DNA of 64,000 nt, from NCBI GenBank assembly GCA_026874595.1, contig CM049322.1, forward strand, positions 43,772,840-43,836,839. Reading direction: 5' to 3'. The stretch is from Sipunculus nudus (taxonomy: Eukaryota; Annelida; Sipuncula; Golfingiida; Sipunculidae). The stretch's first letter is position 1. Each line of letters starts with the position of its first letter. A program made the translations under genes and the position numbers. Below the pieces are notes generated by a model that was not told the DNA's origin, did no database searches, and worked only from the letters and a program-made list of their open reading frames with translations. This document shows, one piece after another, positions 14,467 to 44,640 of the stretch.

Positions 14467-14500
14467 ATGATCCATTGGTACTCACTACTCATACTTACAG
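14467..14500 (+). CDS. Ig gene exon 1: start codon and first half of signal peptide
   Basis: ATG at 14467 opens [11 protein letters not shown] and stops in phase 1 at 'acttacag|gtaaat'. Joined to exon 2 (GFIICGSS) it forms a classical signal peptide: short polar start, hydrophobic core, small residues before the mature chain. I chose this start because it alone gives a leader in the right phase; the ATG at 21397 lies upstream of a good acceptor and would add an implausible N-terminus. The 7-kb intron makes this exon the least certain of the set except for the alternative last exon. Confidence 0.6.
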
Positions 14501-14702
14501 GTAAATTTACGTTATATGTGTATGTGTGAGATGGTGTGTGATGGTGCGTGAGTGTTATGCTGTGTGTGTGTTTCGGGGATTTAGTTATGAAAGTGCTTAC
14601 TTTCACTCCCCTTGGATTTACCAATCCCCATGTTAGATGAACAGATAAGTGTTTGTTAGAATAGATGGTCATTTACAGCAGCTGACTATAGAATATCATT
14701 GA

Positions 14703-14757
<55 letters not shown>

Positions 14758-17700
14758 ACAAATGAATGTTATTGGGCTTACCTTTGATATGCATATCTAT
14801 CTAATCGGTATAGTGACAACGGTCTTAAAACTTGTACACTATGTTACATTTATAGTTTTAATTTTTCGTATAGTCATTGTTCTAACAATGTTTGCCTATT
14901 TTGATCCACAGTAACATCACTCTAAATGTTTATGAAATCAGTGGTATGGTAATTACTGAAACAACCTACAAAGGTACAGGTGCCAGTCCAATTTAACTGT
15001 CTGGGCTTTACCCGGTATGTGAGCTTATGGACACAAAACCAGAGCTCACTAATGAAGTGCCAACAGCCTACTGATAAGGACTCTTAGCCAGTTTATTAAT
15101 CAAGTTATGTTGAAATCCTCCTCATCCTTCATATGCTTCTTTAAGTTAGTTCTCGGGATCCAAAGATAAATTTTCAAAATGACTAAACAACTAGACCAAC
15201 AATATTTATTTGGCACTGCAGGAAAATATAAATCTATCATGTCTTTGAAATTTTTTGGTTAATATAAATGTAATATAATTGTCAGGGGATACTCTGCAAA
15301 TCGGTAATGTTTTAAACTTTGAGGTTAAATGCTTTTAAATGAAATGCATTTCAATCTAAAAACTGAAAAAACTCAATTGTTTAAATAAATTAGTTCTAGA
15401 AATGTGTAACTGTGTGTCCCTATTGCGTCTATAGAAGTACTTGAGAGAAGATTTTGTAAAGAAAAGCAATTGTTAAACTACCTTTATCACGGGAAAGAAT
15501 GAACACCCAAGTTTTGGCCACTTAAACTGCAAAAATACTCAAGAATGTACCAGCTTTTATCACACGGGGGAGTGGAATTAAGCATCCCTTATTACCTCTC
15601 CCCCCAGGGGGAGTGGAAATAAGCATTCCTTTTTTACACTCCCCCGGAGTGGAAATAAGGCCTGCCTTTAGTAATATATGTATCTGAGTGCTTCCTGCGA
15701 AGGGGGTCTGTCCGGTGAAGCGTATTTAATCTCCTTCATACGACGGCGGTCTGACCTTCTGGGTCACGTTCTTAACCTGAATGATGTAACGCTAACACAA
15801 ACATTGAAGGGGTCAAAGTGGCGATGATTTAGGGCCCTAATGACCTACACCACGACAACAGTTGCAAATGTTCTTTCGAGCGACTTAGGTTTCTTATATA
15901 TGTACATGTTAACAACTATATTCACAAACTTTCATTGCGTTCGCGCAACATTCGATCCAAGTATTATAAAGTGTTACACATATGGTCACTTTGCTCGTTC
16001 ATAATCAATCCCCATATGTCCAATGTATAGTCATTAGTGTTAATTAGTGACGATCCCAGAACCCAGTCGCACATAGGAGGCGTCTTCCTTCGACCCCCCC
16101 CCCCCCCCCCGTCGTAGGAAGGACGGCCATTAATATATGGAAATCTTCACATGGAGCCAGTCATGAAATATAGAAATTATATAGGTAGTCATCAGAAATT
16201 TATATTTAAATAGAAAAAGCGTTTTAATAACGCTTTTCTTTCCACCTTTTATTCATTAATGGATATTATTTCATCGCTGATTAACGGAATATATTCCGGG
16301 TTTCTAAATAATGGACTATATTTAGGTTTGCTGATTAATGGAATATATTCAGGGTTTGCTAATTTATTGAATATATTCCAAGTTTGCTACTTAATGGATT
16401 ATATCCAGGTTTGCTGATTAATAGACTAAAGTCTGGGATTGCTGCTATGTGGAATATATTCCACCGTTCTACGTTTGCTAATTAATGCACTATATTCAGA
16501 TTTATTGATTAATCGCATATGTTCCTGGTTTTCTTATTAATGACCAATAGTCCGGGTTTGCTGATTAATGAAATATACCCCATGTTTGCTAAATAATGTA
16601 CTATTTCCAAATTATGATGATTAATGCAATATATTCCTGATTTGCTAATTAATAGACTTTAGTCCGGGATCGATTATTTATGGATTAAAGTCAGGGTTTG
16701 CTGTTTAATGAAATATATTCCAGGTTTGGCGATTAACGGACTATATCCAGATGTTGATGATTAATGGAATATTTTCCTGGTTTGTAAGTAAAGGGACAAT
16801 AGTCCGGGGTTGCTGATTAATGAAATATATTCCAGGTTTGTGATTAAAGGACTTTCGATCGGTTTTGCTTGATTAATGGGCTTAATTTCTTTTAAGTATT
16901 GGACATCATCTGAGCAATATTTTCAGGTAAAATAAAATGAGGAATATTTGTTCTGGTATGTGTATGCATCAGAAGAATGTTGTCCAGGTATGTTTATCAA
17001 AGGAATATTCACTCTAAGAAAAAAGGGTTACATGTAGAACCCTTAAGGGTTCTTTAGAGTGGATCCAGTGGGGAACCCTTAAAGGTTCCAGGTAGAACCC
17101 TCTTGTCAGGGTTCTTCATAGAACCTTCTCTAAGGGTTCTTCATGGAACCCAAAGGTTCCATATATAACCCCAGCAAAGGGTGCTTCTTAGAACCCTACT
17201 GAAAGGTTCGTCAGGGTTCTTCATAGAACCCTCTCCTATGGTTCTTCATAGAACCCCAAGGGTTCTTTGTATAACCCTAACAATGGGGGTTTCTTGTAAC
17301 CCTACTAAAAGGTTCTTTCTGGAACCTACTAAAAGGTTCTTTCTGGAACCGATTCTTCAGATAAGGTTTCTTACAGGGCCCTGGTATGACAGGTTTATTG
17401 ATGATTACTCCATTTTGTATTCATATTAATTTACGAAATATTCTTTAGGATATGGGTTCTCTTCATTTAAACCAATCGGATCTTATACATTTAGGGTATA
17501 GCTTTAAGTTTTGATGTGATGATGACATTTGTGTTAAAGCAACTGCATTGTAGAGATGCACAGTTGGGCAATTCATGCAAAATATTTGGCAATATATGTC
17601 TTAGGATCAATTTCATTTCATAGCTTAAATGTAAAAAGCTGTTCTTGTGCTGTGTTTGTTGTGGTTTAAATATGCTTTGATTGTTAACTGAAAAAAAGTG

Positions 17701-19121
17701 CTCCATGTTAAAACATTTTAATTTGCATATCATAAACAACTGTAAAAAATTATATAAAACATGACCATGCGGCATGGACTGATGATATTGCATATCTTAA
17801 TATCGCAAACGACTCTTTCAAACAGTACGGGATAATGTCCATTCTTCATATTCGGCAACTCGGTCAGTCCTAAGGTAAAATATATTGAGTTGAAGTAATA
17901 TAATCCATGACACATGCAACGGATCCATTTTATGTAATTTAATTGCCTATTTACTTCCTTACAACAAGACCGGATTACACCAATTAAACACCTATAATTA
18001 TGCCCATCACTTTCATCACTTACTGGCCTAGGTAACAACAATAATTAAACTTGTATCCTAATAACCAATTACTGATCTTTCTAACAGTGTTTATTTTATG
18101 GAAATATTCAAGAGGTGTGATGATCAATATTTCATTAAAAATGATCCCTAAAACGTTCGATTTGAGGGGTTGATTTCAAACTTTTTCACACCGAGCATAT
18201 CACACAGCCGCACCAGTTTAATCTTTTTTTTTTGTCGCCTTCGATCTTTAATCACAATCCTAGGGCCCCACGGACCCTTACTGTTGGCCTTTGTGTTTGG
18301 GTGGCTCTGGCATGTTCATGACCTGTGCATGGAGAAATTCCAACGTGTTTGTCAGTCCCTTGGGATAAACTGTACTAAACAAAGTACAACCCAATGACAC
18401 AACATAAGGCTGTTGTCGCGTCCATAGTTGGCTGCTCGTCCACGACGGTGACGCGATCTACCAGGATTTATGCCCTCTTGGCAGTCAATGGATTCCCTTC
18501 CTGACAATCCTTAAACAGTACACACGGCGTCAGTTTGGCATCAGCCTGCAAAAGAAAGAAGGAAACAATAAGTAATCAATCTGAACATGGAAATCTGTGG
18601 ACATTGTCCTCTAACTCACTGTGACCAATGTCTCATCTTGTTAAAATATGCGACACAGGTGGGATACAATGTATAATATGTACAATCTATGCATTACCTG
18701 GTAACACTGTTAAAAAAATATATAACCAAGCAACAATGAATAAATGATCCAGAAAAAAAACTCTTTCATTGTAAAACATGCCTGTGCTTGAAGTTTCAAT
18801 TTTAATAAAAAAAAGTTTAAATTTTGAAGGAATAATGAGACATTCAATAATGCAGACCGCTCCTGCCCACACCTACCTTATTCAGGACAAACAGCTCTTC
18901 ATCTTTCTCTTTAAGCAGCCTTGTTAGTTATACTGCCGCAGCGTTGATGGTCAGTTCTGAAAAGAACAAATTTTGATATGCCATATAAATTATGTCAACA
19001 ACATAACACATTTCTGCCTTTCTGAAAAAATGCTGACAAATATATTGCTTCTTTGATCATGTTTTCTGGAAGAACGATAAGTTAATGTTATAAACATATA
19101 TATATATATATATATATAAAT

Positions 19122-19178
<57 letters not shown>

Positions 19179-19489
19179 GATAAAGTCATAATCAGTTCAT
19201 TATTTCAAAATGGTGATTATTTATCAATGCAGAGGCAATTAAACTAAGACTATTAATGTAAAAGAGATAATTACTATTTATACTCGAATCTATAAATACA
19301 CAGAAAGTAAAGAAAATTAATATGAATTATACACATATTATAATCCAATATGAATTATGGTCTATATCAATGCAATGCTACCCATAGTAATAAGGCGAAA
19401 CAAATCCACATACATATATTAGTATACTCATTTGTGCGTTTATTGTGCGTTTATTGTATGTCAGTGTACTTATATACACACGCACGCAC

Positions 19490-19530
<41 letters not shown>

Positions 19531-20182
19531 AATTTAATGTAAATTTAATGACGCAGAGTTGTACTCCTGATAGCGGGCCTTAGTAAGGGATCAACCATAC
19601 AGCAACTTACCCGTACTCTTAGTCTTCTTTTTTCAGCAAATTTTCACTGTTCAAGAGGGACAGGTAAAGCATGTTCAAAATGGCCGTTTTGGATGTCTTC
19701 GTTCAAAGCTGTTAGACATTCGAAAAGGCCGCTGAGATGCTGCCACGTAACAGTAGCCTGCGAATGGCAGCACACAAGAGTGACCAGATGCTGCCAGGCG
19801 CCCCCCACTGTTTGCGCCCGACCAGGCAACTCGTCACAGGCAGCCCGCCTCCCGCTGCTTGGACTAACCCATCTGGGTGATGAGGGCTCTGGCGGGATAA
19901 CTTCTTCTCTTTTCTGACGAGTTTAGGGAGAAAATGTCCAGTTTATGTTGTCAGTGTAATGTTAATCTTGCCTTGCAATATGAACAAAATCGATAACGCC
20001 ATTTATATATATATATATATACATATATATAAAAGGGGCGGATAATGGATTTTGGAAAGACTAAATGTAAACCTAAAAAAAATGTCGCAAATGTCAGGGT
20101 TTGATCCCCCATGAAAAAAGGTTATTTTGGCTCAAAAGGGGATCCGCCACTGCATATATCTATATATCTATATATCTATATA

Positions 20183-20264
<82 letters not shown>

Positions 20265-23200
20265 CATATACATATATGTATGTATATATATTTTTATATT
20301 TGTGGTGTGTATATATGTATATATATATGTTTTATAATATATAATATGCAATTATGATTTAATATTATATCATATTATATATTTCTATATTTCTATTAGT
20401 TTTATTATTTATAAATATAATATAACATCAGGTAAGATAAAAAATGAAACTACAATACGATTTAATATAAGATAATATAAGAAATGATGGGATAAGATAA
20501 GATAATGACATCATTTATCACACAAAGTCAGTGAATACTGATTCATAGTGCAGCTGGGAACAGTGACCCACACACGTATTGGTACTGTAGGGTTCTATCA
20601 GGCACCCTCACTTCGGGCAGAACACACGAAGAACCTTAAGTGGGCTATCTGGAACCCATTGATATCAAAAACGGTTCTAAGTTGAACCATGGTTCCAGCT
20701 GGAACCATACAGGTTCTGCATGGAACCCCCAAGAACCCTTTTTTCTTAGAGTGTTGTTCTGGTATGATTAGCAAAGGAATATTTTCAAGGAATGTATTTC
20801 AAAGGAATATTGTCCAGGTATGTTTATCAAAGGAATAATGTTCAGGTATGTTTATCAAAGGGATATTGTTCAGGTATGTTTATCAAAGGAATATTTTCAA
20901 GGTATATTTATTAAAGGCACATAGTCCAAGTATGTTTATAAAAGGAATATTGTCCATTTGCTAAAACGGTCTTAATGGCCGGAACTGCAAGCATAAAATG
21001 GCTCTCGGCTCGAAGCTCTGTCGTTTCACAAACTGAGTTTGGCTCTCGATTGGCATGGTTGGGTCTTCGCTGCTGGGATCGGTGAAGGGAATGTATGCTG
21101 CTTCTGCCTTTGTGGCTGTCGGTGCTGTGGCTTTCCTGTAAAGTTACCGGTACGGGTAAAAAGGTGGCGGTCTCTCGCGGCTTTCTGCTTGGCTTGGTGG
21201 CATCAGTTCTATTGGCTCTTAAGAAGCGCATAGGGCTTGGGGCTTGGCCAGAGCAACCTGTAGCTGCTCGAAGAAGCGAGAAATAATTTAAATAAAAAAA
21301 ATCAGGTATGTTTATCAAGGGAATTTTGTCCAGGCTGATGTATTTGGCGATTTTAGTCCACGTTTATTTATATAGGAATATTTTTCAGGTTCAGGAATGG
21401 GGAAATATTCTCCATGTATTATGTATTTATTGAAGATTATTTCCTATGTTTCTTTATTTTTCGTTAGACAATATTTTCTTCGTATTTTCATATTATATTC
21501 GTATTTTTCAGGTTTTATTATTTGTGGTTCATCTTATGAGTCCACGTCTACCACCGTCACGGACGTTCAGATTAACCCGGCGTCCGGTCGGACAGAGGAA
21601 AACAACGTCACAATTACCTGTATCTCAGATGGCCCAGACCTCTATTACAACTTCACGTGGGTCAGGTACACGGGGGAGCGTGTCCACATTGCCGCCAAAA
21701 ACGACGAGTTGTTATCTCCGAATGAAAACCAGTTCTCTTTTTATAAAATTAACGGAAATCTCAACTTTAAGCTGAAGGTGTCAGGTACGTACAAATTAAG
21801 AATGTATAATTTACTTTTATTTTATCGGTATTTCTCCCTAGAAGGCCCCTATTCCATTCTAAAAAAAATCGCGCTGAACAGAGCTTTTCCATTTGCGCGG
21901 AAACGCGCGCGTTTTCGCAGAATCCCTCCTTTCCGTGACCTGTTTTCACAAGGTATTACCCGTCCCACAGCCTTCCCGGCATCATGTCAAGCATGTGTCT
22001 GTTCACTTTATGCATGTATACATTTAAAATTTCGTTATATTTGCAGGAATGTATAGTTCTTATTACGGTAGTGTACTATTGACAGGAAGGCGGGGATCGT
22101 ATATAGGTTATATATGAGAAGATTATTAACTACCCCAGTCGGTAATAAGATATTTAGCACCCCCGCCGCACATATATATGTTTATATAATAAACATCTTC
22201 ATTATAATAATAATGCATTAAAGTAGACAAGCAGAACAGCAGTTAAGTATGATTTGTCGCCATGCATGACAGAGGCCTATGCTGGGGCGTCCTCAAGCAG
22301 ACTGCATTCGCGTCCTTGACCTCCACAAGCAGGCTCACCCGCGTGCGTTTCCGCGTGCATGGAAAAGGGACACATGAAAAATCGCGCATCGCACGATGTT
22401 CATTTCACACTCCGCGCGCGTTTCCGCGTGCATGGAAAAGAGACACATGATTTACACTTGCGCGATTTTTTGAGCGCGCGGGCGCGCGTTTCCGCGCGCA
22501 TGGAAAAGGGGCCGAAGGGTCTATTCCCATATATAACGTCTATTAACTAATGATAACCCCTTAAACTATTTATTAAAATGGACAGAAAAAAGCACCCTAT
22601 ACCAAGCACAGGCTGTTCGTTGAGTTTATATTCACGTGTTTATAACATGTGGGTAGCCGGAAAAATAATCACAACACAGTCAACAAGGACATTTTTTTCG
22701 GCAAGGCAGACGAAACAATGTTTTGCAACTAGTTACTTTACTACTTCCGCATAATAATATGCTGCCAGGCACCTTAGATTTTTATTTTGTAAAAATTGAT
22801 ATGTTTACTGAAAGCTTGTAGACAAGTCCATACATGTTTTACAAAGGCGCTATAAGAACTTTACATACCAGGTATTATCAAGAAATCATACTCCGAGTGG
22901 CCAGATATCAGTTCTATAAAATAAGCAGGCAATAGCTGGCTCTAAATAAATGCAGAAAAACCTACAGCTACATGTTTATTATGCAATACAGGCTAAAGTT
23001 ATTTTACATTATATTATGTTTAATTCATGGTGTCTTTTAAATATTTCCAAGATATAATATTTTATTTATTCAACATAAATTACTCTGTCATTCTAGGTGT
23101 TGCTCGTTGGGAAACTGGACTTTTTGGATGCAGGCGAGCTCAGACGGTGGAAACACAACTTTCAAAAGGTAAGTCAGATTTGACCGATAGGGCCTAAACT

Positions 23201-23538
23201 TTGAGTAGTGAAACTGTAAACTGCACTACAATGTTCTTCCACACCGTGACATAGACATCTCTATACAAAGTCATTAATCATATGATTTGGCTATTACACT
23301 GGATTTAAATACTAAGAAGTCCCATCGACATCTCTATACAAAGTCGGCAATCATATGATTTGGCTAATACTCAGAATGTATACACTAAAAAACACCCAAA
23401 CCAAACTTTAAATCACCCCTATATGGTGTCTGCCGTCTTTTCCTGCACCTCCTACAACTCAGATGTCAGTCACAGATACGCCGCTGGGGACATGCTCGTA
23501 TATGCGCTCAGAAATCTTACAAACGTGAAGAGAAATTT

Positions 23539-23590
<52 letters not shown>

Positions 23591-25076
23591 TCCGAACATA
23601 CATTGAAGTTTTCGGCATATTAGTTATATCATGTAACATATTTAAGTTCCTAAAACAAGACTTTGTCCAGCCAATATTTGTCATTGAAGCAATAATAAAG
23701 GAAAGCAAAATACGACAGTATGAGGAGTAATAAAATATGAATACATGAATATTTTTGAATACAAAATTTCCGTTTCCTCTTAAATATTAACGTATGACAG
23801 TTTTTTTATTATTGTTATGGTTGTTATACGGCTTTATATTGAATATACATGAGCTATATAGAGCTAAAGCGCTGACGTAAATAGCGTGACATTTTGGACT
23901 GCAATGATTGTCAACGTAAAGTGTGAAACATTTATGTTCTTAGAAATAAATCCCAATATTTAATCTACTTGTAGTGAAAGCTGCCTCAACTGAGATTGAA
24001 GACTACCAAGAGAAACTGATTAGCCCGACATTCCAAAAAGCGTGTGAGCCCAACGTGACGGATCCATCTCTCACCGACAGGTATTTTTTTAGACATGATC
24101 TTGATGAGCTAATTGGTCTTATATAATTCACATGTCGATTATCAGGGACATATATGTACATGTATATATAATTGTGCACAACCGGCGACCATTTTTATTT
24201 CTTCTCTTCTGCCCATTGGATTTTCAAAACGACTAATTTGTACAGCCTAAGAGGCACGCATCTGATATTTATTTTAAACTAAAGGTCAATATCATATCCC
24301 TTATTATCGCTCAAAATTTCTTTTAATTTTGATGGGGGAATCTAGTTCCCTGCCGGAGCCTGTGTCCCTTCCTCCCCCCCCCCCCCCCGCCTCTCTTACA
24401 AGGTCAATTTTATTATTTTTTAAATCGATTGTACAACTTGTTATAATAACTAATACAAGGCACTCTCCATGGCTCGGATGGTGGCGTTCGGTAGTGTATG
24501 GAGGTCGCGGTAACCGTTGGTCCCGGGAAAAACCAACCAACCTTGAACGGGCCACCACAACCCACTCTCAAAGCCACACTGTGAATCGAACCCGGGTCGC
24601 CAGGGGAGAAAGCCGACGTATTTAACTCCTCGTCTGTCCAGGACCAGTGGACCTCCCCGGACTTCCTTTTAGTTTTCCTCGGTTGGACCACCCTCTCATT
24701 TTTCAAAATCCTAGATCCGCCCCTGCAGTTTGTATTGGTGTTGTCATGTGTTAAATGTATGTTCTTTCTTCCGTTTGTTTGTTTTAGAGAAGCTGCTGTT
24801 GGCGTGTACAGGGTGCACTATTATGGCGAGAATGATCCGAACTTATGGTACATAAAATGTGACGATGACGGAGATGAGCTAGAGTGTACAACCTCATACA
24901 CCGACGACACATTTTTCCTGGAATTTAAAAAGGTTTTCCTGCCGACAAATCTAACAGGTAAAATACAATAAACTAATTTTTTTCTCTGTGCTATAAAACG
25001 AATGAGTTTAATTTTTGATTGCAAATGGTGAACATTAAATCAAGCATGCACTTTAAGTTGTAAGAGACCGTGAAAC

Positions 25077-25125
<49 letters not shown>

Positions 25126-28100
25126 GAGGGGGAGCGAAAAAAAGAGAGAGGAAGGGACAGATAGAAAGAGATATAGATGGACAGGCACAGAGAGACGGGG
25201 AGAGAGAGAAAAAGAGAGATATAAGGCCAAAAAAAAAATAAGGTATGGTTCTCAGGCACTTTTTATCAGAAATCAGTGCGGGCGGGCGGTATTTTATTTT
25301 TGACCTTTTTTTGGATGTTTCGATAAAAATGTCATATAATCAGGAAAAAGCATGAAAACAACAATTTTTTTTCTAAACACTACATAAATTGTATTATTTA
25401 TCTTCTTGAAAGATAAAAATCAAAATAAAAATTTTTGATGCGGGGGGTTAAAATTGACGCGGGCGGTGCCTGAGAACCATACCTTTTATTTTTTTGACCT
25501 AAAACAGAGGAACAAAGTGAGACAGTGAGACCTAGAGAAATGGTCCGGCAGCCAAAAGTCATTTTTTCAGCTAACCTTGTTTTATGGTCTTAAGTTTTTA
25601 AGTATCATGTGTAAGAAATAAGTTGGTTGGCCCTCTATCAGCCTTTTGCAATTTTTACTAATTAGCATAAAACAAAATGGCCGCCAAAATAATGCTAAAC
25701 AGCAAAAAATGCCATAATTACCTTTACATTTGACTTAGAGGGTCATCCAATACATTAATTCTAGGGTATCATGACCCAGAGAATTCTTTTTTTGGTATTG
25801 TTTTAGTCATAATGACCACCATTTTTAAAGTAGCTGTTGTCCCATTTGAAATAAATGTAAATGTACTGGACACATGATTTTGTTAGTACCCATGTTCCAA
25901 AGCATTCTGCAAATCGAGAGTAATAAATTAAACTAATTAAACACTCAAGTATATATGAAGATGAGATGATCAAACGTTCCGGAAAAACGGCTGTTATACA
26001 TTTTGAAAATAATATGCTTTTCTGTGACCTATGTATGGCCTTCATAATGAAACAGTAAGAGTGAAACTGCCGTTATCCACAGTTTTTATTTCTCCCCCCC
26101 CCCCCCCCCCTTGTGTCACGACGAGGCCCGATATTTACAATTTAGGCGAGATTTTGCTTGGTTGGGGGTGGATTATGTGAGCATGATCTGCGTCCTTTTA
26201 AATAAAAATGGCACCTTTGCAGAAATAACATGGGAACATGGGGGGGGGGGGGGGGGATGAGAACAGTTGCAGCCGGCCTCTTTCATAATACAGATTAAAA
26301 CAAGTACTTAAAGAAACTATTAACACGGTAATATTACTATTTTTTTCATTATTGATAAATATTGCATGACAGTGTAATGAAATTTTATGCATGGGTTCGA
26401 ATGAAATATTTGATGGGGATTGTCTTTTCATTCTTAATATAAAGAATATTCATATAATAATAGAGGTGATCTAGAATGATTAATAATATAATATTTTCCC
26501 CGTTTCTATATCAAACAAATAAAATTATACAAAAAAATCTTTTATACGAATATGCTTACTTATATATTCATTATTCAGATTCTTGGTCACGAGGCATAAG
26601 AAATTGCTTTTCATTTTTATGGGAACCAATAACATCAAAACACGTTTAGCACTTCAGGGAAGTATACGGTGACCTAGTCCTCTCAAGTTAAACACGGGGC
26701 ACAACATAATCTCCTTGGATGAGATAATTATAATATCCAGAGCTAAAAACATGTTTGTATTTGACAGGCGCGGTAAGATGCGAGTACAAACGTATGTTCG
26801 ACATCCACTCCAGCGAAAAAGGGAAAGTCTTCGCCAAAAAACGCTACTACCCAGAGGGGACGACCTTGACCTTCAAATGTCTGTCAAAGATAGAATCTGG
26901 GATCACGTGGATGTGGAGACGTTCTGACGAAGGCGTTGAGAATGTTCTCGCCAGAGACGGCTCGCTACTGTCCGGGGTGAAGATATTACTTGAGGACCGG
27001 TACACCATTTCCCAACTGAATTCTAATTATGACTTACAAGAGAATACGCTCACTATCACAGGTGGGTTTGCTTTGCGAATAAGGGTGAATCCAACATTCT
27101 CAATCAGTGTTCCGTAATTTTTCTTTGAGTGAAGACATTGTGGAATAGAGGTGCGGACCGGACCGCTTAATCCGGTCCGGTCCACAGTTTTGCGCTTGAC
27201 CGAACCAGGCCGGTATTACAAAATACCGGACCGCCTACCCCTGGACCGGATCGGTCCAGACCGTCCCTTCTGAAATTTATTGGTTTGTGTAATTGCTGAA
27301 TTTTGTTCAAGTTCACCCTGCAACTCTTTGTTTTGAACATTGTGCTTGGGTTTGTAGGTAGCTTACAAGTAAAGACACATTATCCCCAATTAATGTACTG
27401 AACCACTGGCAGAAATTTTGCTTCAAGCAATTTTTCCAGCTAGTTTAGAAATAAAATTTCAGGGTGTATAAAGAGGGTTTTTTTTGGGGGTCAGTAGAAT
27501 GATTTACTGATTAATAAATCATTTTTGTGGCGACAGCATGTATAATATCATTTAAACTGTTTTTAATTTTAATTAAATAAATGGAGCGGGCCGCTTTGAC
27601 TGGTCCATCTTCAGTAACGGACCGCCTACAGCTGGACTGGGCAATGATTAGACCGCTGTGGTGATGGACCGGACTATGAGGGGGTGGTCCGGTTCGGTCT
27701 GCACCTCTTTTGTGTTGTCTATGCTCTGTCCTGTGTCCACGTGGTTTTTCGCAATAATTGTTTTACGATCATTTTGAAAAATACACTTCGGCCTCATATT
27801 AATATGCAGAAATTCTACGAAATTTTGTAGAATTTAAGGACCTGATTTAATGCAAAATTACGATATTTACTTTGCGACACAGTCTAATTGTTTTTAATAA
27901 GAAAACCTCTGCCCGATGTAAGTCACTCCACAGAGGTCAAGGTAAGACATTTAAGCGCAAGAAAGACGTTATTCCTTATTCACTCTTTGGCAATCGGCGG
28001 AATATTTCCTGCAATGTGTGTACAGGCCAGAATATTTTAATGGCTCAAATGACTAACCCCCTCGCCCCTAAATACCCTTTTTACGAGCAAATTAAACATT

Positions 28101-28518
28101 AATTAACATGGATATTTATATTGAATTGGGTTTTACCTCATATCCATTTCTTTTAATGAGCAGATGCCAAGCCTTATGACAGTGGGACCTACATTTGTCA
28201 GACATCAAACGAAGGGACTGCCTTCAGCTCCAGAAAAATCACCGTAGCAGGTAAAGGACGGCCATCTCAGGCAAAAAGAACTTACCTGTAACTGGAAAAG
28301 AAAATTATTACAACATTTACACATGTGGATTTGTAGGGTAAATTTTTACTTTTGCACTTGTATGTGTGACTTATTTCTCCAATGGAATGAGATTTTCAAC
28401 TAATATTCTAGCATGATGATATACAATTTATCTACTTTTTGTCAAAATAGTAAAATTTCCCTCTATAACTGCAATTATTCTGTACGTGGTAGTATTCTCA
28501 GCTGTTAAAACGTAAGAC

Positions 28519-28583
<65 letters not shown>

Positions 28584-28725
28584 TTATTTATATTCATACA
28601 TATTGTAAAAATGTATATATATAATGTTAATATTATACCCATACTTATAGGTACACGCAAATGTATTATATATTATATATTATATAACATTATATTAATG
28701 TATTTGTTAATATAGTTTATTTAGC

Positions 28726-28760
<35 letters not shown>

Positions 28761-31700
28761 ATATATATAAATATATAGGGAAACTGAGCGATACGTCTGT
28801 GACGATGACAACCAGCGCCCCTCTGAAGGCGGCCGGTCAGGTGGAAATTACCAACGGTGATAAAATCACAGTCACGTGCGTTACTCACGCTGCCAATGTG
28901 CAGCCAACCGTAGTGGTGCTCCTTGGTAACAGGACCCTTCAGAAGTACATGGAACCAAATCCTGTTGTTCAAACGGACAAGGGCGAAGGGTAAGCTATAA
29001 CTAAGGTTATATAGCTATTTGATCATTGTCATGGAGAGAACTGTTTACCTTTTTGTCATGGTATAATTTCGTAACACTTTAACACTTTTTTTTGCATATA
29101 AGATACATATATATTCAGCTCGTTGCATCTTTTTTGGTTTTCATGAACGATGGACTTCCGTATATTTTAATATTACATGCAAAAATAACATGCACTGAAA
29201 TAATAAAAGAAAAAAATCAATGTACAAACACTGTTTCTTAAGACTGTTAACTAGAGAAATTTGTTTAATAAAATGAAGGGGACTTTTTTTTTATTCAAAA
29301 CAGTTTGTTTCTGATGAACCAGTCTTTGAGACAGAACTTTAACATTTAAGCGGTTACGAAGAATTTCGGAACACTTACTGTTAAACAGTTTAAAAAAAAA
29401 CATAAGGACATCACAATGGCGTATTCTGTTCATCACCTTCACAGAACAAAAAGTACATAAACCATTCACAGCACTCTCTCTTAAAAGTTGCCTATACAAT
29501 TCAGTATATTAAATGGACTAGCCTGGATTATATCATCGATTACTTATCTGCTATGTTAAACTACTATTGCAGATTGTTAATTACCTAACTAGAATTTTGC
29601 CTTCTAAGTGTTTCGTAAACGTTTTCATATGGGGAAATACATGGCCGATCACAGATTTACACCCATGTCGGTAACACACGTATCCGGCGTACCAACCGCT
29701 TTGCTATTGGAGCAAGCTTCATCAGCGAAACCGTTCGGTCCGCTTTTATATGCACCCTGTTTCAAGACCCCTCTTAAAGAGCGTGCTGCTGTCAGAACAA
29801 GCATAGTTATCCTTGGAGTCACACTTTTTGTGAACTAGGTGGCGGCAATTACCCAATTAACTGAAACCATCATTCCCCTGGCCCATCCCTTGGGTGTCAT
29901 CCCGGACGAGCCCCCATTTGCTATGTAAACAACTTGTTAAGGGGAAATATATGGCAGTTAGCGGATTCGAACCGATGTCAGTCGCGCACATGTCCGGCGT
30001 TCCAACCGCTTCGCTAGAAAAGCAAGCTTAACAAGCGAGACAGTTTGCTTCGCTTTTATATGCACCCCTTTACATAAGGAATGCAATTCGTCGTCATGTG
30101 AGGGCCCTTATTGTGAAATGCTCCCCAACCCGTGTTTCCACTAACTTATTCTGCCCATATTCCCACTTTCGTTCGCGCATAAGTGATTGTACATCTGTGA
30201 ATATTCCTTAATGACTTTCCTGAAACCAGTCAATGTTTATCAAAATCTAACCGGTTCTTCATTGGCCAATTCCCGAAATAGTCTGGTTACGCGAGTTATA
30301 GTTGTTTACAAACACACAAACAAGATTACCAGGGGTCACGCGCTTGCCGGAAATGGAAATAATACAGACAAACAGAGAGACTGTAAAACAGAGTGTAACT
30401 GTAAAATTTGCCGAGTTATAAGCATTTACCTGAAATCTTGTTTCCTCACGTTTGAAGAGATAAAGTGCGAGATTTGGCGTGACTTGCAGTGATATCTTGT
30501 CAAGCTGGTCATATGTTACGATATGCCGACAACTACACCTGTGTAACTGTAAAATTAGCCGAGTGATAAGCATTTATCTGAAATCTCATTTTTTATCGTA
30601 TGATGAGATATACTGCGAAATTTGGCTTGACTTGCAGTATTATTTTGTCAAGCTGGTCATACATTACAATAAGCCGACAACTAAACCTGTGTAACTATAA
30701 ATGTCATCGAGTTATAAGCATTTCCGTGAAGTCTCGTTTTTATCTCGTTTGACGAGATATAGTGTGAGATTTGGCGTGACTTGCAGTGTTATCTTGTCTA
30801 GTTGGTCATATATTATGATACGCCGACAACTAGACATATGTAACAGTAAATTACGCCGAGTTATAAGCATTTGTATGAAATCACTTTTTTTCTCGTTTGG
30901 CGAGATTTAGTGCGAGATTTGGCAAGACTTGGAATATTATCTTGTCAAACTATATGTAACGAAATGACGAAAACAAAACCTGTGTAGCTGTAAACGTCAC
31001 CGAGGTATAAGCATTTCCGTGAAGTCTCGTTCTTTTCTCGTTTGTTGGGATATGGTGCGATATTTGAACAATCTTTAGTCTTATCACGTCCAGCTGACCA
31101 AATGTTGCGAAATGCCAAAAACTAGACCCGTCTAGCTTAAAAAGTCGCCATGTTATAAGCATATCCGTGAAGTCTCGTTTTTTTTTGCGTTTGACAAGAT
31201 ATAGTGCAATATTTCGCGGGACTTCTAGTTTTAACATGTCAAGCTAGCCATAAGCTACCCAATGACGAAAACCCGGTCTCTGTAGCTAAAAAATTAACAA
31301 AGATATAAAAAATGTAGCATGAATATTTTAATATTATCAAGTTTTTACCCAAAAATGCGTAACCATGGTAACCGCAAACGAAGCTAGCTACATATCATAT
31401 GAAAGACCATAAGATGTCCAACAAAATGAGCTATAGTTTATGTTTGTAACATATACAATTTTGGAGATATGGCTCGAAACGTATATGTCGTAGGTTATTG
31501 ACTGCAGCGCCTCCAAGCGGCCATATTAAAAATGAGAAACAATTTCGAAGTCGAGGCCTCTAGGGTATCTGTAAGCGAAATATCGCCAAGTCACGTTTCC
31601 TTGACTTTCGACCGATGTAGACCAATAACAATAGGCGGCCAGGACTTCTACAAGCTACGAAAGCGATTGATTCAAAATTGTGACCTGTAGAGATGGGACA

Positions 31701-32816
31701 TACAAACAAACAGACAGACAGACGGGTATACGGAACTGAAGAATATGCAAATATGCAAATACACGTGGATGATTCTGGCATAGGTAATAATGGTGTTGTG
31801 TCGACATACATGAATGTGATACAGTGAAAGAGTAACGAAGACTGCATTAAGTGAAATGTATTAACTCGGTTACCCATGCAGAAAGTTTTACACAGGTACA
31901 TGTGTGTGTGTTCTAATTATTATCAACATACTGTCAAATTAATATTACCGTCAAATTTAGAATACGAGATTTGGAAATGTACGAAGACAGACATCGTGTT
32001 ACAGTGACTGCCACAGAGGTTCCCATTTCCTGTGACGATGACGACAAAACGTTAACCTGCACAGCCACAGCCCCAGTAAACCAATTCGCTAACAAAGATA
32101 TGAAGATCAAGGTCACAGGTAGGTCTCACAATTCATACCCACAGCATTTCTTTTTTTTCATCTGTATCCAATCAATATAATCATGTGTCGTGGGTGCTAC
32201 ACCTACATCGTCAAACATTGTACGACTTATTCCTGATTTTGAATTATAATGATTTCTTACAAATATATACGATATTTGGTTTTAGTGCCATATACCACGT
32301 AAGGTTAATAATCGAGTCTTTGTGGTACATATGTACAGAAAAACCGTCGAATGGTTCGAAAAGGATTCGTATGCAGCCCTGCACAAATAACTCAACTTGT
32401 ACAATTTACTATAGTGGTTTATCCATAATTTTCACATGCGACCTGTATGTGACATCTGGGTTGCAGTGTTTATGTTTAGTGGCAGCCTCCATGAACGGAA
32501 GCGAAACAGCGACTTGTGACATCTGGCAGCCCCCGTAAATGGTTTCGAGAAACTGGGAGATAAAACATTAGGGTTCGATAAGGGCCATTGGATGCGACAT
32601 TTCTCGAACAAATGTTATATGCATTACGAATATTATAATGTACATTTTAAAATGATATATGACTTAAATTTTCTACATGCTTGTTTTTTAGCATTTTTTA
32701 ACACTTTTATCTTTGTTTCAGGTTGCGGTGATAATACAGGGGCAGCCACTGTCGTTTTCGCCACAAGGTTGTACTTACTGCTGTCCATGATACCGCTGTT
32801 GTTTGTTGTCTTGTGA
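14467..32816 (+). CDS. Four-Ig-domain cell-surface protein, probably GPI-anchored (10 exons, 499 aa)
   Basis: Joining 14467-14500, 21512-21784, 23097-23168, 23975-24080, 24788-24957, 26768-27061, 28164-28250, 28779-28989, 31961-32118 and 32722-32816 gives 1500 bases, one frame, ending at a TGA. All junctions are GT-AG and all phases agree. Seen in the product: signal peptide at residues 1-19; Ig 1 with C48, W61 and C114; a short atypical Ig 2 with C150, C186 and C195; Ig 3 with C256, W266 and C328 in DSGTYIC; Ig 4 with C379, C440 and C449 but no core Trp; and a hydrophobic tail (about 484-499) ending the protein. Family knowledge: such proteins act at the cell surface in adhesion or recognition. 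The GPI anchor is inferred from the tail. No orthologue is recognised. NxS/T sites suggest glycosylation. The exon and domain pattern suggests duplication of an Ig 1-Ig 2 block. Confidence 0.75.
14707..14754. repeat. AT microsatellite in intron 1
   Basis: Uninterrupted TA dinucleotides. Confidence 0.9.
14755..16257. other. Intron 1 sequence with a small GGGGGAGTGGAAATAAG repeat
   Basis: Mostly featureless intron. At 15565-15662 the phrase GGGAGTGGAAATAAGCAT and its C-rich complement recur about three times. A C run lies at about 16085-16110. No exon in the needed phase was found. Confidence 0.45.
16258..17009. repeat. Degenerate tandem array, about 33-bp unit, left part
   Basis: The phrase 'ctgattaatggaatatattc' followed by a variant of 'caggtttg' recurs roughly every 33 bases with many substitutions. 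The same type of array continues at 20754-20955 and 21300-21390, so insertions have split one original array. Confidence 0.75.
18468..18956 (-). pseudogene. Two decayed exons inside the transposon
   Basis: On the minus strand, 18956-18877 and 18545-18468 are joined by a good donor (aataag|gtaggt) and acceptor (ttttgcag|gct) in phase 0. They read [17 protein letters not shown], then [19 protein letters not shown], up to a TAA. One in-frame stop interrupts the first exon. The helix-forming, charged sequence looks protein-derived. It may be leftover transposon protein or a captured host exon; family unknown. Confidence 0.35.
19644..19917 (-). pseudogene. Coding-like frame inside the transposon, unknown family
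   Basis: The minus strand is open without a stop from 19917 to 19644 (about 90 codons) and is GC-richer than its surroundings. It includes [20 protein letters not shown] and [15 protein letters not shown]. It ends shortly after the latter with a stop. It may be another exon of the element's former gene. Nothing is recognised by family. Confidence 0.3.
20029..20152. mobile_element. Small hAT-like MITE flanked by AT repeats
   Basis: Left AGGGGCGGATAATGGATTTT and right GGGGATCCGCCACTG are imperfect inverted ends of the CAGGGGCGGATCC type also seen at 9816-10041. It lies between TA microsatellites, which hides the target duplication. Confidence 0.45.
20153..20262. repeat. TA and TG microsatellite
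   Basis: A long ATATCT/TA run passing into a TG run (about 20234-20261). The two frames through it are low-complexity only. Confidence 0.9.
20956..21292 (+). repeat. GC-rich retro-inserted block with A-rich tail
   Basis: About 330 bases of GC-rich sequence interrupt the AT-rich 33-bp array and end in AAATAAAAAAAATC, as if a transcript had been reverse-copied. The minus strand is open along the block (R/S/T-rich) but this frame runs out into the array, so I do not call it a gene. Source transcript unknown; it could be a SINE or a processed fragment. Confidence 0.4.
21512..21784 (+). CDS. Ig gene exon 2: rest of signal peptide and first half of Ig 1
   Basis: Acceptor 'gtatttttcag|gtt', donor 'gtcag|gtacgt', phase 1 to 1, 273 bases. 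It encodes the B-strand cysteine (NVTITC) and the core tryptophan (NFTWVR) of an Ig domain, plus N-glycosylation sites NVT and NFT. The second Ig cysteine is absent here and comes from exon 3. Confidence 0.8.
22285..22510. repeat. GC-rich near-tandem repeat in intron 2
   Basis: Three copies of TTTCCGCGTGCATGGAAAAG (near 22347, 22424 and 22488), each followed by GACACATGA or GGGG, lie within sequence rich in GCGCGC. An inverted copy lies at 21884-21910. Confidence 0.6.
23097..23168 (+). CDS. Ig gene exon 3: second half of Ig 1
   Basis: Acceptor 'cattctag|gtg', donor 'caaaag|gtaagt', phase 1 to 1, only 72 bases, encoding [16 protein letters not shown] and onward. The cysteine in LFGC lies 66 residues after the exon 2 cysteine, the usual Ig disulfide spacing. 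The exon was too short to appear as a frame with a start and was found from this requirement. Confidence 0.7.
23543..23589. repeat. AT microsatellite in intron 3
   Basis: Uninterrupted TA run. Confidence 0.9.
23975..24080 (+). CDS. Ig gene exon 4: first half of atypical Ig 2
   Basis: Acceptor 'cttgtag|tga', donor 'accgacag|gtattt', phase 1 to 2, 106 bases. It encodes [15 protein letters not shown] and a cysteine (QKAC) followed by an N-glycosylation site (NVT). It is much shorter than exon 8, its counterpart in the second block, so Ig 2 may lack some strands. Confidence 0.65.
24340..24727 (-). mobile_element. Interspersed element in intron 4, with tRNA B-box-like motif
   Basis: The right edge ends AATCCTAGATCCGCCCCTG, the hAT-like end seen elsewhere in the window. 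Inside, the minus strand has GGGTTCGATTCAC, a match to the polymerase III B box, suggesting a tRNA-derived segment. A C run lies at about 24364-24387. The left boundary is not clear. Confidence 0.35.
24788..24957 (+). CDS. Ig gene exon 5: second half of Ig 2
   Basis: Acceptor 'gttttag|aga', donor 'ctaacag|gtaaaa', phase 2 to 1, 170 bases. It contains [10 protein letters not shown] and the motif [10 protein letters not shown]. The same C-DDD-xxx-L-x-C spacing is repeated in exon 9, which marks exons 5 and 9 as duplicates. Confidence 0.75.
25079..25215. repeat. GA-rich microsatellite in intron 5
   Basis: A pure GA run at 25079-25122, then degenerate GA/GGGA sequence. The long frames on either strand here are low complexity. 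Confidence 0.9.
25240..25485. mobile_element. 246-bp MITE with perfect 19-bp inverted ends
   Basis: AAGGTATGGTTCTCAGGCA at 25240-25258 is exactly complemented at 25467-25485. The copies point outwards around an AT-rich core with GCGGGCGG near both ends. Flanks are A/T runs, so the target duplication is unclear. No coding capacity. Confidence 0.75.
25486..26767. other. Intron 5, remainder
   Basis: Unique-looking AT-rich intron with a C run (about 26094-26110) and a G run (about 26240-26256). No further exon seen. Confidence 0.4.
26768..27061 (+). CDS. Ig gene exon 6: first half of Ig 3
   Basis: Acceptor 'atttgacag|gcg', donor 'atcacag|gtgggt', phase 1 to 1, 294 bases. It carries the Ig cysteine (LTFKC) and core tryptophan (GITWMW), then the strand pattern ending NTLTIT. 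An extra cysteine (VRC) sits near its start. The layout is the same as exon 2. Confidence 0.8.
27147..27708. mobile_element. 562-bp hAT-like MITE in intron 6
   Basis: Left end AGAGGTGCGGACCGGACCGC and right end GGTTCGGTCTGCACCTCT are inverted with about two mismatches. The ends are packed with CCGGACC words while the middle is AT-rich. The size, ends and lack of coding suggest a hAT-type MITE. No clean 8-base duplication is seen. Confidence 0.65.
28164..28250 (+). CDS. Ig gene exon 7: second half of Ig 3
   Basis: Acceptor 'atgagcag|atg', donor 'gtagcag|gtaaag', phase 1 to 1, 87 bases. It encodes the textbook Ig F-strand DSGTYIC, followed by a G-strand ending KITVAG. The cysteine is 72 residues from that of exon 6. 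Confidence 0.8.
28522..28777. repeat. AT microsatellites up to the exon 8 acceptor
   Basis: TA runs at about 28522-28579 and 28726-28777. The second reaches the AG that starts exon 8. Confidence 0.9.
28779..28989 (+). CDS. Ig gene exon 8: first half of Ig 4
   Basis: Phase 1 to 2, 211 bases, donor 'gaagg|gtaagc'. It encodes KITVTC (Ig B-strand) and VVVLLGN at the place where the core Trp is expected, so this domain lacks it. The acceptor AG lies directly at the end of a TA microsatellite, with no pyrimidine tract. Confidence 0.7.
29630..30090 (-). mobile_element. Two tandem tRNA-derived SINE copies
   Basis: On the minus strand the second copy has a polymerase III A box (TAGCGAAGCGGTTGG, about 30015-30002) and B box (GGTTCGAATCC, 29973-29963) about 40 bases apart, as in a tRNA. 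The first copy (about 29650-29715) has the same layout with a decayed B box. Both share GCAAGCTT and CGCTTTTATATGCACCC on the plus strand, roughly 310 bases apart. This looks like a SINE and not a working tRNA gene, as no full cloverleaf closes. Confidence 0.55.
30390..31290 (+). repeat. 148-bp tandem array in intron 8, about 6 copies
   Basis: The landmark GTGTAACTGTAAA (and variants) recurs at about 30391, 30540, 30689, 30837, 30983 and 31130, followed each time by GAGTTATAAGCATTT and GTGCGAGATTTGGCGTGAC-like words. Divergence rises toward the right end. Confidence 0.85.
31961..32118 (+). CDS. Ig gene exon 9: second half of Ig 4
   Basis: Acceptor 'aaatttag|aat', donor 'gtcacag|gtaggt', phase 2 to 1, 158 bases. 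It contains [14 protein letters not shown] and [14 protein letters not shown]. The second cysteine is 70 residues from that of exon 8, a normal Ig spacing. Confidence 0.75.
32339..32538 (+). CDS. Alternative last exon of the Ig gene (secreted form?)
   Basis: Acceptor 'atgtacag|aaa' in phase 1 matches exon 9. The frame encodes 66 residues rich in cysteine ([26 protein letters not shown]) and ends at a TAA. Joined to exon 9 it would give 534 residues without a membrane tail. A good donor (ccccc|gtaaat) overlaps the stop; spliced to 32722 it would be in the wrong phase and stop within three codons. It may be an alternative 3' exon or a relic of a further Ig half-domain. Confidence 0.4.
32722..32816 (+). 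CDS. Ig gene exon 10: hydrophobic C-terminal tail
   Basis: Acceptor 'ttgtttcag|gtt', phase 1, 31 residues from [17 protein letters not shown] through a 15-residue hydrophobic stretch to a TGA. The pattern of small residues, a short spacer and a terminal hydrophobic run with no charged tail fits a GPI-attachment signal; a bare membrane anchor is the alternative. No AATAAA is seen just after the stop. Confidence 0.65.
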
Positions 32817-32877
32817 TCAACTTGATTTACTCCGTAATTCATAACAGAAGAGAATGAATCAAACAAAGGACCCATAG

Positions 32878-32930
32878 GTCAGGTTGCTCAGCTGGAGAGC
32901 ATAACTTGTAACACGCGGGCCTGATATAAA
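32878..32930 (+). repeat. tRNA-like fragment (A box only)
   Basis: GGTTGCTCAGCTGGAGAGC matches a tRNA D-arm with the A box, followed by an anticodon-arm-like stretch. No B box (GGTTCGA) follows, so this is a decayed tRNA-derived element and not a tRNA gene. It lies just after the Ig gene. Confidence 0.35.
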
Positions 32931-33099
32931 ATGTGACATTTATATTTTAGAGGAAGGTAACAAATTTTGAAACAGCACGAACTAGTCACACCGAAAGAAA
33001 CAGAAAATCTCTAAACATTATGCATAATAGATGGACCCAAATATTTCCTAAAAAAATGCAGTGGGACTAATTTTTGCTGACAGATGTTGCATGCTGGGT

Positions 33100-34760
33100 C
33101 AACATTAAGCAAATTGTCTTAGGCCAAAAAAGACAGGTTTCTCCGGCTTTTTTCGGAAATCATGGCAGTTTGATATAATCAGGGGGTAACATGATAATAA
33201 CGAAATTGTTTTTTGGTGGAAAGGTATACGTATACCATATAAAAAGGCAATTTACTTCAATTAGAATATTTCATTTTCCTGATAGAAATGTCCCAACGAC
33301 AGGAACTCAAACTCGGTAAAATTATAATAAAAAATAAAACATGTTGATGTGGGTTTCTAAATTGACCTTTTGCAAGAAACCAACTTTTTTGGTCTGATAT
33401 GTTTCTGTTTAAATACCAATTGTGAGACATTTATGAGACACAATGTTATCAATCAAATGAAATGATAAAATTTAAATTTCCATTAGACAGAATTTTGAAA
33501 ATATTAAATTCAATTCTTACTCTGTATTAATTTCCCCTTGCTTTAAAGAATTTCTTGAAATACTCATAATATGAAACATGCTATTCTTTTTCTGATTCAT
33601 CCATGAAAATATGGAAAAGATAATTTTGAACAACGCCGTTCGCCACCTATAGCTAATAATTAGATATTAGGTACATTATAAATATTTCTATCAAATATGA
33701 TACTTTTGGTTGCAGCTGTTTCTGGAACATTTGGTAAAAAAAAACATGCAAAATTAGAAGTCCATCGAAGACGCCATTTTGAGAATAATTCTATTTGATT
33801 CATACCTATTTATCACCCCTTGCTCCAAGGAACTGTCCACTTTGAACTGATAGTTAAAGTTTTACTCTCTTGAGATTATTCTATAGAAAAGCAGAAAATT
33901 TTGCTTAGGCTCCCAGAAAAAAAATTAACAGAAGAGGCGCCACCTGCACGCAAAAATTACATAGCAGGCACATAGTTAATTTTTCAGTGAAATTTATCGC
34001 TAGAGACTTTGGGCATACCTGAGATACCTAATAATAAACAAAATACAAACAAACCAAGGTGTCAAATTTTGAGATTTTATGTTCCAGAGAGATGCCACCC
34101 TGAAAAATAATTTACCTGAATTTATACTCATTTTATTCCCCTTGCTTTTAGAAAACGATGAGGTTATATTATGAAAGCAAGAAAACCAATACTTTATGAT
34201 GTATATTATAATAAATAACTTTAAAACCATTTTAGCACGCAGAAAGTAGGGCAACATAGGGGCGCCACCTACAGCTAAAAGTCACACAAACATATAGCAG
34301 TTATTCGAACAATACTTCAGTAATCTGTGAAATTTGATGCTGGTGGCAACGGCATATCTGAGATATATAATACACAAAATATCCTTTGTCGAATGTTGCG
34401 ATTAACAAAATTTTAGGTTCGATAAGGACGCTGTTTTGAATATAATTTGACCGAATTTATGCTAATTATATTCCCTTGTCCGAAAAATGAAAACCAAGAT
34501 ATTAATACTTATATCTATACTTATGACTATCAATCGGTAAAAACGGGAAAGGACATTCCGTCCGGAGAAAGTAGGTCAATATCGGTGGCGCCACTAACAC
34601 CTTATTATTGCAAATTCTTCACATGCTAAATAAGTCTGCAAACCTCAATAATGACAGCTGTAGCGGCTGTTGAGATATTTGGTAACAAATGGAGAACGGC
34701 GGATAGTGGTCGGTGGACGCGGTTAACGGCGGACGCTGCACCATGGAGTAAGATCACAAT
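33100..34760 (+). repeat. Interspersed repeat family C, about 320-bp modules
   Basis: Modules with 'GCGCCACCT' followed by AAAA/CACA text and 'GAGATA' recur: the palindrome half or whole is at about 33641, 33937, 34261 and 34584. The block ends in a GGCGGA/GGACGC-rich tail at 34690-34740, like the tail of family A. Confidence 0.6.
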
Positions 34761-42648: not shown

Positions 42649-43254
42649 TTAATCCCCAAAGTATACAACCTTGTTTAACAGATAGTTCCTGTCTTCTGTT
42701 AAATTTGGTTTCAAATCATCATCATCCAAATGCCTTTGCCAACCCATCTGAGTAAAGTCTAAAACTCTAGCGACATCTTTCCTGGTGGCGTCACTAATCT
42801 GCCGAGATGTTACAGGGAACTCTCTTACATATGACACATTATATGCTTCTGTCTCTACTGAACCTACAACTTGTTTTAGAGGTAAGCGAGGGAGCGAATC
42901 TGCATTTGGATGCTCAACTGACCTGGGGAACTTTACATCATATTTATACGCTGACAAAACCAGAGCCCATCTCTGCATACGGGCTGCCGCAAGTGTTGGC
43001 ACCGCATTATGGGGACCCAATATAGTATTAAGGGGACGATGGTCAGTCACCAAAGTAAACTTCATATCATACAAGAACTGGTGAAATGTCTTTACTCCAG
43101 AAATTACACTAAGGGCTTCCTTTACCAAATGAGCATAGTTTTTCTCGGCCTTAGACAGGGTTCTAGATGCGAATGCAATATGTCGCTCCGTGCCATCCTC
43201 ATGCTCATGGCTAAGTACTATTCCTGACCCATATGGAGACGCGTCACATTGCAA
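42649..43254 (-). pseudogene. pol: RNase H domain of the retrotransposon
   Basis: The longest open piece of the element, 201 codons. It begins at CDASPYGSGIVLSH (first catalytic Asp) and includes FASRTLSKAEKNY and VTDHRPLNTIL, typical of the RNase H of Ty3/gypsy elements, then the linker to the integrase. It degrades the RNA of RNA-DNA hybrids during copying. Confidence 0.8.
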
Positions 43255-43331
43255 TACAATAGGATTCTCTGATCATAGTGAACCAGCAATTGATTATGAA
43301 GTATCGGATGTTTGCATTCTCTAAAAGCATG

Positions 43332-44090: not shown

Positions 44091-44640
44091 CTAAACCCGA
44101 CTCTTCAACGCATAGGGCACTGGCCTAGCTTTATTAAACACAGGCGGGTGGCTCTTGTCCACCTTAATACTTGCCTTTTGGCCTCTTATGGTGCCCATAT
44201 CTTGCTTTACAACATTTGGGAATTTGTCTAGTAATCTCTTTACATTACTCTCCCCTTTCTCTGCATAATTAGTTCTGAACACTGTTTCCCAGTTTACCTT
44301 AATTTTCTGCAACCAACTCCTACCAAGCAATGCAGGTCTTGATGCACCTGCAGAAACATACATTGGCAATGTGTACATATTATCATTATACATGATATTT
44401 GCATCAAGTTTACCTAGAACATTCAACTTTTCACCACTGTAGGTTTGCAAAACCACCCCTGCTGGTGCTAATACACAATCATGAAAATGTTGAGCGTCCT
44501 CTGAAATTCAGGAAACAGCAGAACCTGTTTTCAGCTCAATAGGAATCTGGCCACCATTAACAGTCATATCAATAACATAACCTTTAGAGTCCAAAGAATA
44601 CACAGTTAAATAATGCATGTCCAAAAAGTCCTCGTCACTA
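44091..44640 (-). pseudogene. pol: Aspartic protease remnant
   Basis: The active-site triad expected as D-T/S-G reads K-T-G here (the Lys codon at 44529-44531 replaces the catalytic Asp), and a stop follows after GSAVS. The later LLGRSWLQKI motif typical of this protease family is preserved. The frame then runs into the KARPVPYALK linker before the reverse transcriptase. Inactive. Confidence 0.7.

Follow-up and report, generated by a model that had tools for sequence, protein, structure and literature searches.

A predicted immunoglobulin superfamily gene of Sipunculus nudus with a repeated pattern of intron positions

Exon structure of the gene

The 64,000 nucleotides of Sipunculus nudus analysed here (GenBank assembly GCA_026874595.1, contig CM049322.1, positions 43,772,840 to 43,836,839 of the forward strand), referred to as the window, contain a predicted gene of ten exons between positions 14,467 and 32,816 (Table 1). 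Reconstructed from the window, the ten exons join in a single frame of 499 codons followed by a stop codon, and all nine introns are of the GT-AG type. The intron phases are 1,1,1,2,1,1,1,2,1. An earlier note on this DNA had described the same exons, frame and phases, and these were reproduced exactly. The product resembles proteins of the immunoglobulin (Ig) superfamily, and the units encoded by exons 2-3, 4-5, 6-7 and 8-9 are designated Ig1, Ig2, Ig3 and Ig4. The splicing itself is predicted from the sequence; the guanine-cytosine (GC) content is 0.474 in the exons and 0.361 in the introns.

Table 1. Positions in the window of the predicted exons and of associated features
Feature	Position	Strand	Description
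Exon 1	14467..14500	+	GT donor, phase 1; start of the predicted signal peptide; least certain exon
Exon 2	21512..21784	+	First part of Ig1, V-like; Cys48, core Trp
Exon 3	23097..23168	+	Second part of Ig1; ETGLFGC, Cys114
Exon 4	23975..24080	+	Short first part of the second unit (Ig2)
Exon 5	24788..24957	+	Second part of the second unit (Ig2); Cys186/Cys195; ungapped match to exon 9 from the junction
Exon 6	26768..27061	+	First part of Ig3, V-set; Cys256, ITWMW
Exon 7	28164..28250	+	Second part of Ig3; DSGTYIC, Cys328
Exon 8	28779..28989	+	First part of Ig4, C2-like; ITVTC, Cys379; acceptor without pyrimidine tract
Exon 9	31961..32118	+	Second part of Ig4; Cys440/Cys449
Exon-like stretch	32339..32534	+	Phase 1 acceptor; 66 residues including the split codon; TAA at 32536 or phase 2 donor
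Exon 10	32722..32816	+	Hydrophobic tail and stop; putative attachment signal for a glycosylphosphatidylinositol (GPI) anchor
Two AATAAA motifs	33326..33338	+	First such motifs after exon 10; possible polyadenylation signals

Between exons 2 and 4 a strict splice filter leaves a single phase 1-1 candidate with a length of 54-149 bases, namely exon 3, which has the F-strand motif G-x-[YF]-x-C near the expected distance. In first-order Markov sequences a candidate of any kind was found in 39 of 400 cases and a candidate bearing the motif in none of the 400. The same filter gave no candidates in the region of exon 7, so that the real exon 7, which has weaker splice sites, was missed. The acceptor of exon 8 is without a pyrimidine tract because an AT-rich repeat tract (28522-28777) extends up to it. 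The intron between exons 8 and 9 contains a tandem repeat with a 148-bp unit in about 5.8 copies (30393-31252).

Start exons were sought between 8000 and 21400 with a loose filter on donor and hydrophobicity. Of the ten candidates, exon 1 is the most hydrophobic and ranks second in donor score. A nearer start exon at 21095-21149 also passes the filter; it lies opposite an open reading frame (ORF) on the minus strand, 20911-21363, which has no match in Pfam, though by eye it appears to be derived from a repeat. The frame of exon 2 also continues without a stop through 21397-21511, ahead of its acceptor, with in-frame ATG codons at 21397 and 21421, and this very hydrophobic stretch is a possible alternative N-terminus.

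Domains of the product and repetition of the exon block

When the whole product was scanned against Pfam up to an expectation value (E) of 10, seven families were obtained, all of them Ig families. The curated cut-offs were exceeded by V-set (E 4.1e-11), Ig_3 (2.7e-10), Ig_2, ig and I-set, with the best stretches on Ig3. The best stretch of V-set, residues 247-342, spans the junction between exons 6 and 7 at codon 317; with the exons taken singly, exon 6 gave Ig_2 at E 0.07 and exon 7 reached E 0.0011. With at least one Ig-fold domain recognisable from its sequence, the product can be placed in the Ig superfamily. Its best match among solved structures is Dpr4 (E 0.00024), and a two-sequence profile of Ig1 and Ig3 matched PDB chains of antibody single-chain variable fragments (best 2.8e-7), carcinoembryonic antigen, CEACAM1, DIP and neurotrimin.

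The other units are less clear. Ig1 matched Ig_3 with E 0.012 and exon 2 alone with E 0.047, both under the cut-off. For Ig4 the best family was C2-set_2 (E 0.14), also under the cut-off; Cys379 and Cys449 are 70 residues apart, as in a full domain, and Cys440 is present in addition. In Ig2, Cys186 and Cys195 are 9 residues apart, just like Cys440 and Cys449, there is no counterpart of Cys379, and exon 8 has twice the length of exon 4. Local alignment matches Ig2 to Ig4 only from TFQK/TLQK onward, whereas global alignment sets the initial eight residues of exon 4 against the beginning of exon 8 and leaves a gap of 30 columns over the stretch with Cys379. The second unit is thus apparently without the first strands and the first cysteine. 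Two stretches were considered and rejected: 23309-23620, as the missing part of Ig2, has no Pfam match and no phase 1-1 exon except a simple repeat, and a stretch at 19344 that resembles the end of an Ig domain has no fitting splice sites and no Ig match in Pfam. The earlier note had counted four Ig domains. On present evidence the number is three at most; Ig3 alone is clear, Ig1 is weak, Ig4 is very weak and Ig2 is unrecognisable.

The introns within the units are placed alike in the two halves of the gene. The split codons 103 and 317, both of phase 1, lie 11 residues before Cys114 of Ig1 and Cys328 of Ig3, and the split codons 162 and 416, both of phase 2, lie 33 residues before Cys195 of Ig2 and Cys449 of Ig4. 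The shared phase 1 split of Ig1 and Ig3 and the shared phase 2 split of Ig2 and Ig4, both proposed before, are thus borne out. This agreement to the residue is the best evidence for a block duplication. The repeat of phases on its own is weak evidence: class 1-1 borders are described as usual for Ig modules (excerpt of PMC8001218), which leaves only the two phases within the domains free, and by our estimate these would match by chance in about one case in nine if the three phases were equally frequent.

The similarity between the units points in the same direction. Among the six pairs of domains the strongest are Ig2-Ig4, for which none of 500 shuffles was as good (z 6.6), and Ig1-Ig3, with one of 500 (z 4.7). 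The corresponding counts were 5 for Ig1-Ig4, where the stretch is short, 12 for Ig1-Ig2, 38 for Ig3-Ig4 and 427 for Ig2-Ig3. The duplication of an Ig1-Ig2 unit suggested in the earlier note therefore agrees both with the strongest pairs and with the intron positions. Exons 5 and 9 compared without gaps from the junction are identical at 11 of 54 positions with a score of 19, equalled by none of 5000 shuffles (1 of 5000 in a repeat run); in eight registers shifted by 1-4 the scores fell to between -15 and -61. In the same comparison exons 3 and 7 share 3 of 25 residues, with a shuffle fraction of 0.0022. A gapped test was made of the 36 pairs among exons 2-9 and the exon-like stretch 32339-32534, and a pair was listed if fewer than 100 of 2000 shuffles were as good. 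The listed pairs are 2-4 (1 shuffle), 2-8 (2), 5-9 (2), 2-6 (19), 2-9 (30), 4-8 (40), exon 6 with the stretch (54), 6-9 (65) and 8-9 (99).

The product has five N-glycosylation sequons and 13 cysteines. In exon 10 a stretch of small residues is followed by a hydrophobic tail and the stop codon, without a cytoplasmic tail. Judged by eye, this suggests a GPI-attachment signal. The N-terminal hydrophobic peptide, the five sequons, the Ig units and the C-terminal tail taken together suggest a GPI-anchored surface protein.

The window was searched for further domain copies and spare half-domain exons, using phmmer with the four Ig units as queries against six-frame segments of at least 15 residues. 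Only the exons of the gene itself were found below E 2, and mutually exclusive half-domain exons are therefore not seen in the window. Of the 30 ORFs of at least 110 residues, 16 were scanned as such with Pfam. On the minus strand a reverse transcriptase RNase H-like domain (42649-43272, E 4.4e-31) represents the remains of a retrotransposon, and 44091-44507 appears by eye to be another retrotransposon piece, its sole Pfam match being the unrelated WC-rich family (E 0.019, under the cut-off). A 30-bp tandem repeat of fifteen copies with 97% match is found at 842-1292 and is open in several frames on both strands.

Favoured explanation and alternatives

The explanation favoured here, with moderate confidence, is that the gene encodes a protein of the secretory pathway, probably N-glycosylated and GPI-anchored, which belongs to the Ig superfamily and has arisen through an old duplication of a four-exon block. 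The ectodomain would consist of two tandem repeats, each made up of a V-like domain and, after it, a C2-like unit, and the block would comprise the first and second parts of the V domain and the first and second parts of the C2 unit. Its duplication would have been made easy by the phase 1 introns that bound it. In the first copy the first strands of the second unit would have been lost later, or were never present. By analogy with other GPI-linked proteins of the superfamily, the V-like domains are the likely binding parts, for a partner carried by another cell or present in the fluid, with the C2-like units as spacers; in the absence of a cytoplasmic tail, signalling would depend on a partner. 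The signal peptide, the glycosylation, the GPI anchor and the binding role are all predictions from the sequence. Most likely the product is an adhesion or recognition protein of the Ig superfamily.

Several results weigh against this explanation. Exons 4 and 5, joined or apart, gave no match in Pfam up to E 10, and a profile of Ig2 and Ig4 gave two matches in the PDB up to E 10, neither of them an Ig chain. The earlier note took both exons 4-5 and exons 8-9 to encode Ig domains; in the Pfam search the former are without a match and the latter gave C2-set_2 under the cut-off. A single-exon fold of exon 6 was uninformative (predicted local distance difference test, pLDDT, 42). In the gapped test exon 2 scores higher with exons 4 and 8 than with exon 6, and exons 3 and 7 are missing as a pair from the nine listed above. 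Comparison of the DNA of the two blocks gave nothing better than E 0.18; the duplication, if real, must therefore be old. Regarding the gene model, a two-site splice-score filter (20 rows) retains exons 2, 3, 5 and 6, not exons 4, 7, 8 and 9, the acceptor of exon 8 follows directly on the AT repeat, and exon 1 is only one of the ten start candidates.

The exon-like stretch 32339-32534 raises the possibility of two forms of the protein, one GPI-anchored through exon 10 and one secreted and ending in the stretch. The stretch is phase-compatible with exon 9, is open up to the TAA, encodes six cysteines and has a GC content of 0.444, against 0.336 before and 0.295 after it. By eye, whether the frame runs into the TAA or is spliced into exon 10 in phase 2, it ends within three codons, and the hydrophobic tail would be absent. 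On the other hand, the GC content is uneven in windows of 60 bases (0.33-0.53), neither AATAAA nor ATTAAA is found from 32301 to 33325, and an open frame alone is not rare, since by a rough estimate about one in 100 random frames of this length would be open here. A match to DUF7496 is weak and depends on context: it never reaches the cut-off, with E 0.0045 for the stretch alone and values of 0.03 and 0.36 when longer contexts were used. No PDB chain matched the stretch up to E 10, and a single-sequence model gave strands and loops only, with low confidence (pLDDT 59). Two forms are accordingly thought possible, although not likely, and the stretch may be an alternative end that gives a secreted form, a relic or a product of chance. 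The gene itself could be a decaying or pseudogenised copy that no longer makes a working protein, with the stretch and the short second unit as relics. The stretch resembles exon 8 in length (196 and 211 nt) and in the phase class that it may have (1 in, 2 out), the region 32501-32720 contains no open exon of phase 2-1 with at least 30 bases, and the shortness of exon 4 relative to exon 8 fits decay. Such a copy is nevertheless very improbable in view of 499 codons without a stop or a break of the frame, GT-AG borders at nine introns and the equal spacing of cysteines in exons 5 and 9.

The short exon 4 without the cysteine could instead mean that the gene model is incomplete, with a missed exon for the first strands of the second unit, and the number of start candidates and the 7 kb of intron 1 could mean that the true first exon was missed. 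In that case all four Ig domains would be complete in the real protein, and the 5' end might also differ. Against this, a search between exons 3 and 4 for single GT-AG exons of phase 1-1, 45-399 bases long, gave a stretch of simple repeat and nothing else, and an incomplete model is considered rather unlikely. With regard to function, the V-like domains and the predicted surface anchoring would suit a fast-changing receptor of immune recognition or allorecognition, and Ig-only recognition proteins are described from oyster (CgSiglec-1 and CgJAM-A-L; excerpt of PMC5877582). The lack of a second copy of any Ig exon in the window weighs against such a receptor, which is considered improbable, and the sequence evidence does not distinguish adhesion from immune recognition. 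Still more doubtful is a lineage-specific V-C2-V-C2 recognition family in which half-domain exons are gained and lost and a switch of the last exon, between exon 10 and 32339-32534, turns a GPI-anchored protein into a secreted one. New in comparison with what had been described before are the reading of exon 10 as a probable GPI signal and the unassigned stretch 32339-32534, with which the protein would end before that signal and perhaps be secreted.

Comparison with known systems

Ig domains split over exons have been reported for NCAM. As a rule the Ig domains of NCAM come from two exons each. The exon map of the present gene fits the plan of two exons per domain, although exons 4-5 match no Ig family. 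The two fibronectin III domains of NCAM are not found in the Pfam scan of the product, and the likeness lies in the exon plan only, with no sequence relationship demonstrated. The CEACAM proteins, a vertebrate family, have V and C2 domains and some members are GPI-linked; the likeness is seen in the carcinoembryonic antigen and CEACAM1 chains that matched the profile of Ig1 and Ig3. CEACAM Ig domains are as a rule encoded by single exons. The IgLONs are GPI-anchored, and likeness to these and to the Dpr and DIP proteins is seen in the matches to Dpr4, DIP and neurotrimin chains, though such matches are generic to Ig domains.

The FREPs of gastropods also go by the name of VIgL lectins. They are described as secreted proteins that carry one V-type Ig domain, or two, at the N-terminus (excerpt of PMC7588048). 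The present product has a hydrophobic C-terminal tail, its second and fourth units look C2-like, and because the Pfam scan shows no fibrinogen or lectin domain it is by definition, as given in that excerpt, not a FREP. In the lophotrochozoans Lottia and Capitella the third Ig domain of FGFRL1 lies on two exons; split Ig domains are also described in FGFRL1 of nematodes, Drosophila and Daphnia, and phase 1 borders in human and Nematostella (excerpt of PMC2754479). FGFRL1 differs from the present product in having three Ig domains, a transmembrane segment and a cytoplasmic part. Since split Ig domains are known from both FGFRL1 and NCAM, the internal splits are no mark of a lineage-specific family, contrary to what the earlier note had proposed. 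No literature on a molluscan family with this exon plan was found in titles and the beginnings of abstracts, a search outside which most subscription papers fall.

The gene is a plausible and ordinary member of a very large superfamily, to which it adds one plausible gene. It provides a small, fairly clean case of the growth of a protein through the doubling of a group of exons whose borders match in phase. If the switch between a secreted and an anchored form and a diverse gene family were true, the finding would bear on recognition proteins in animals without antibodies.

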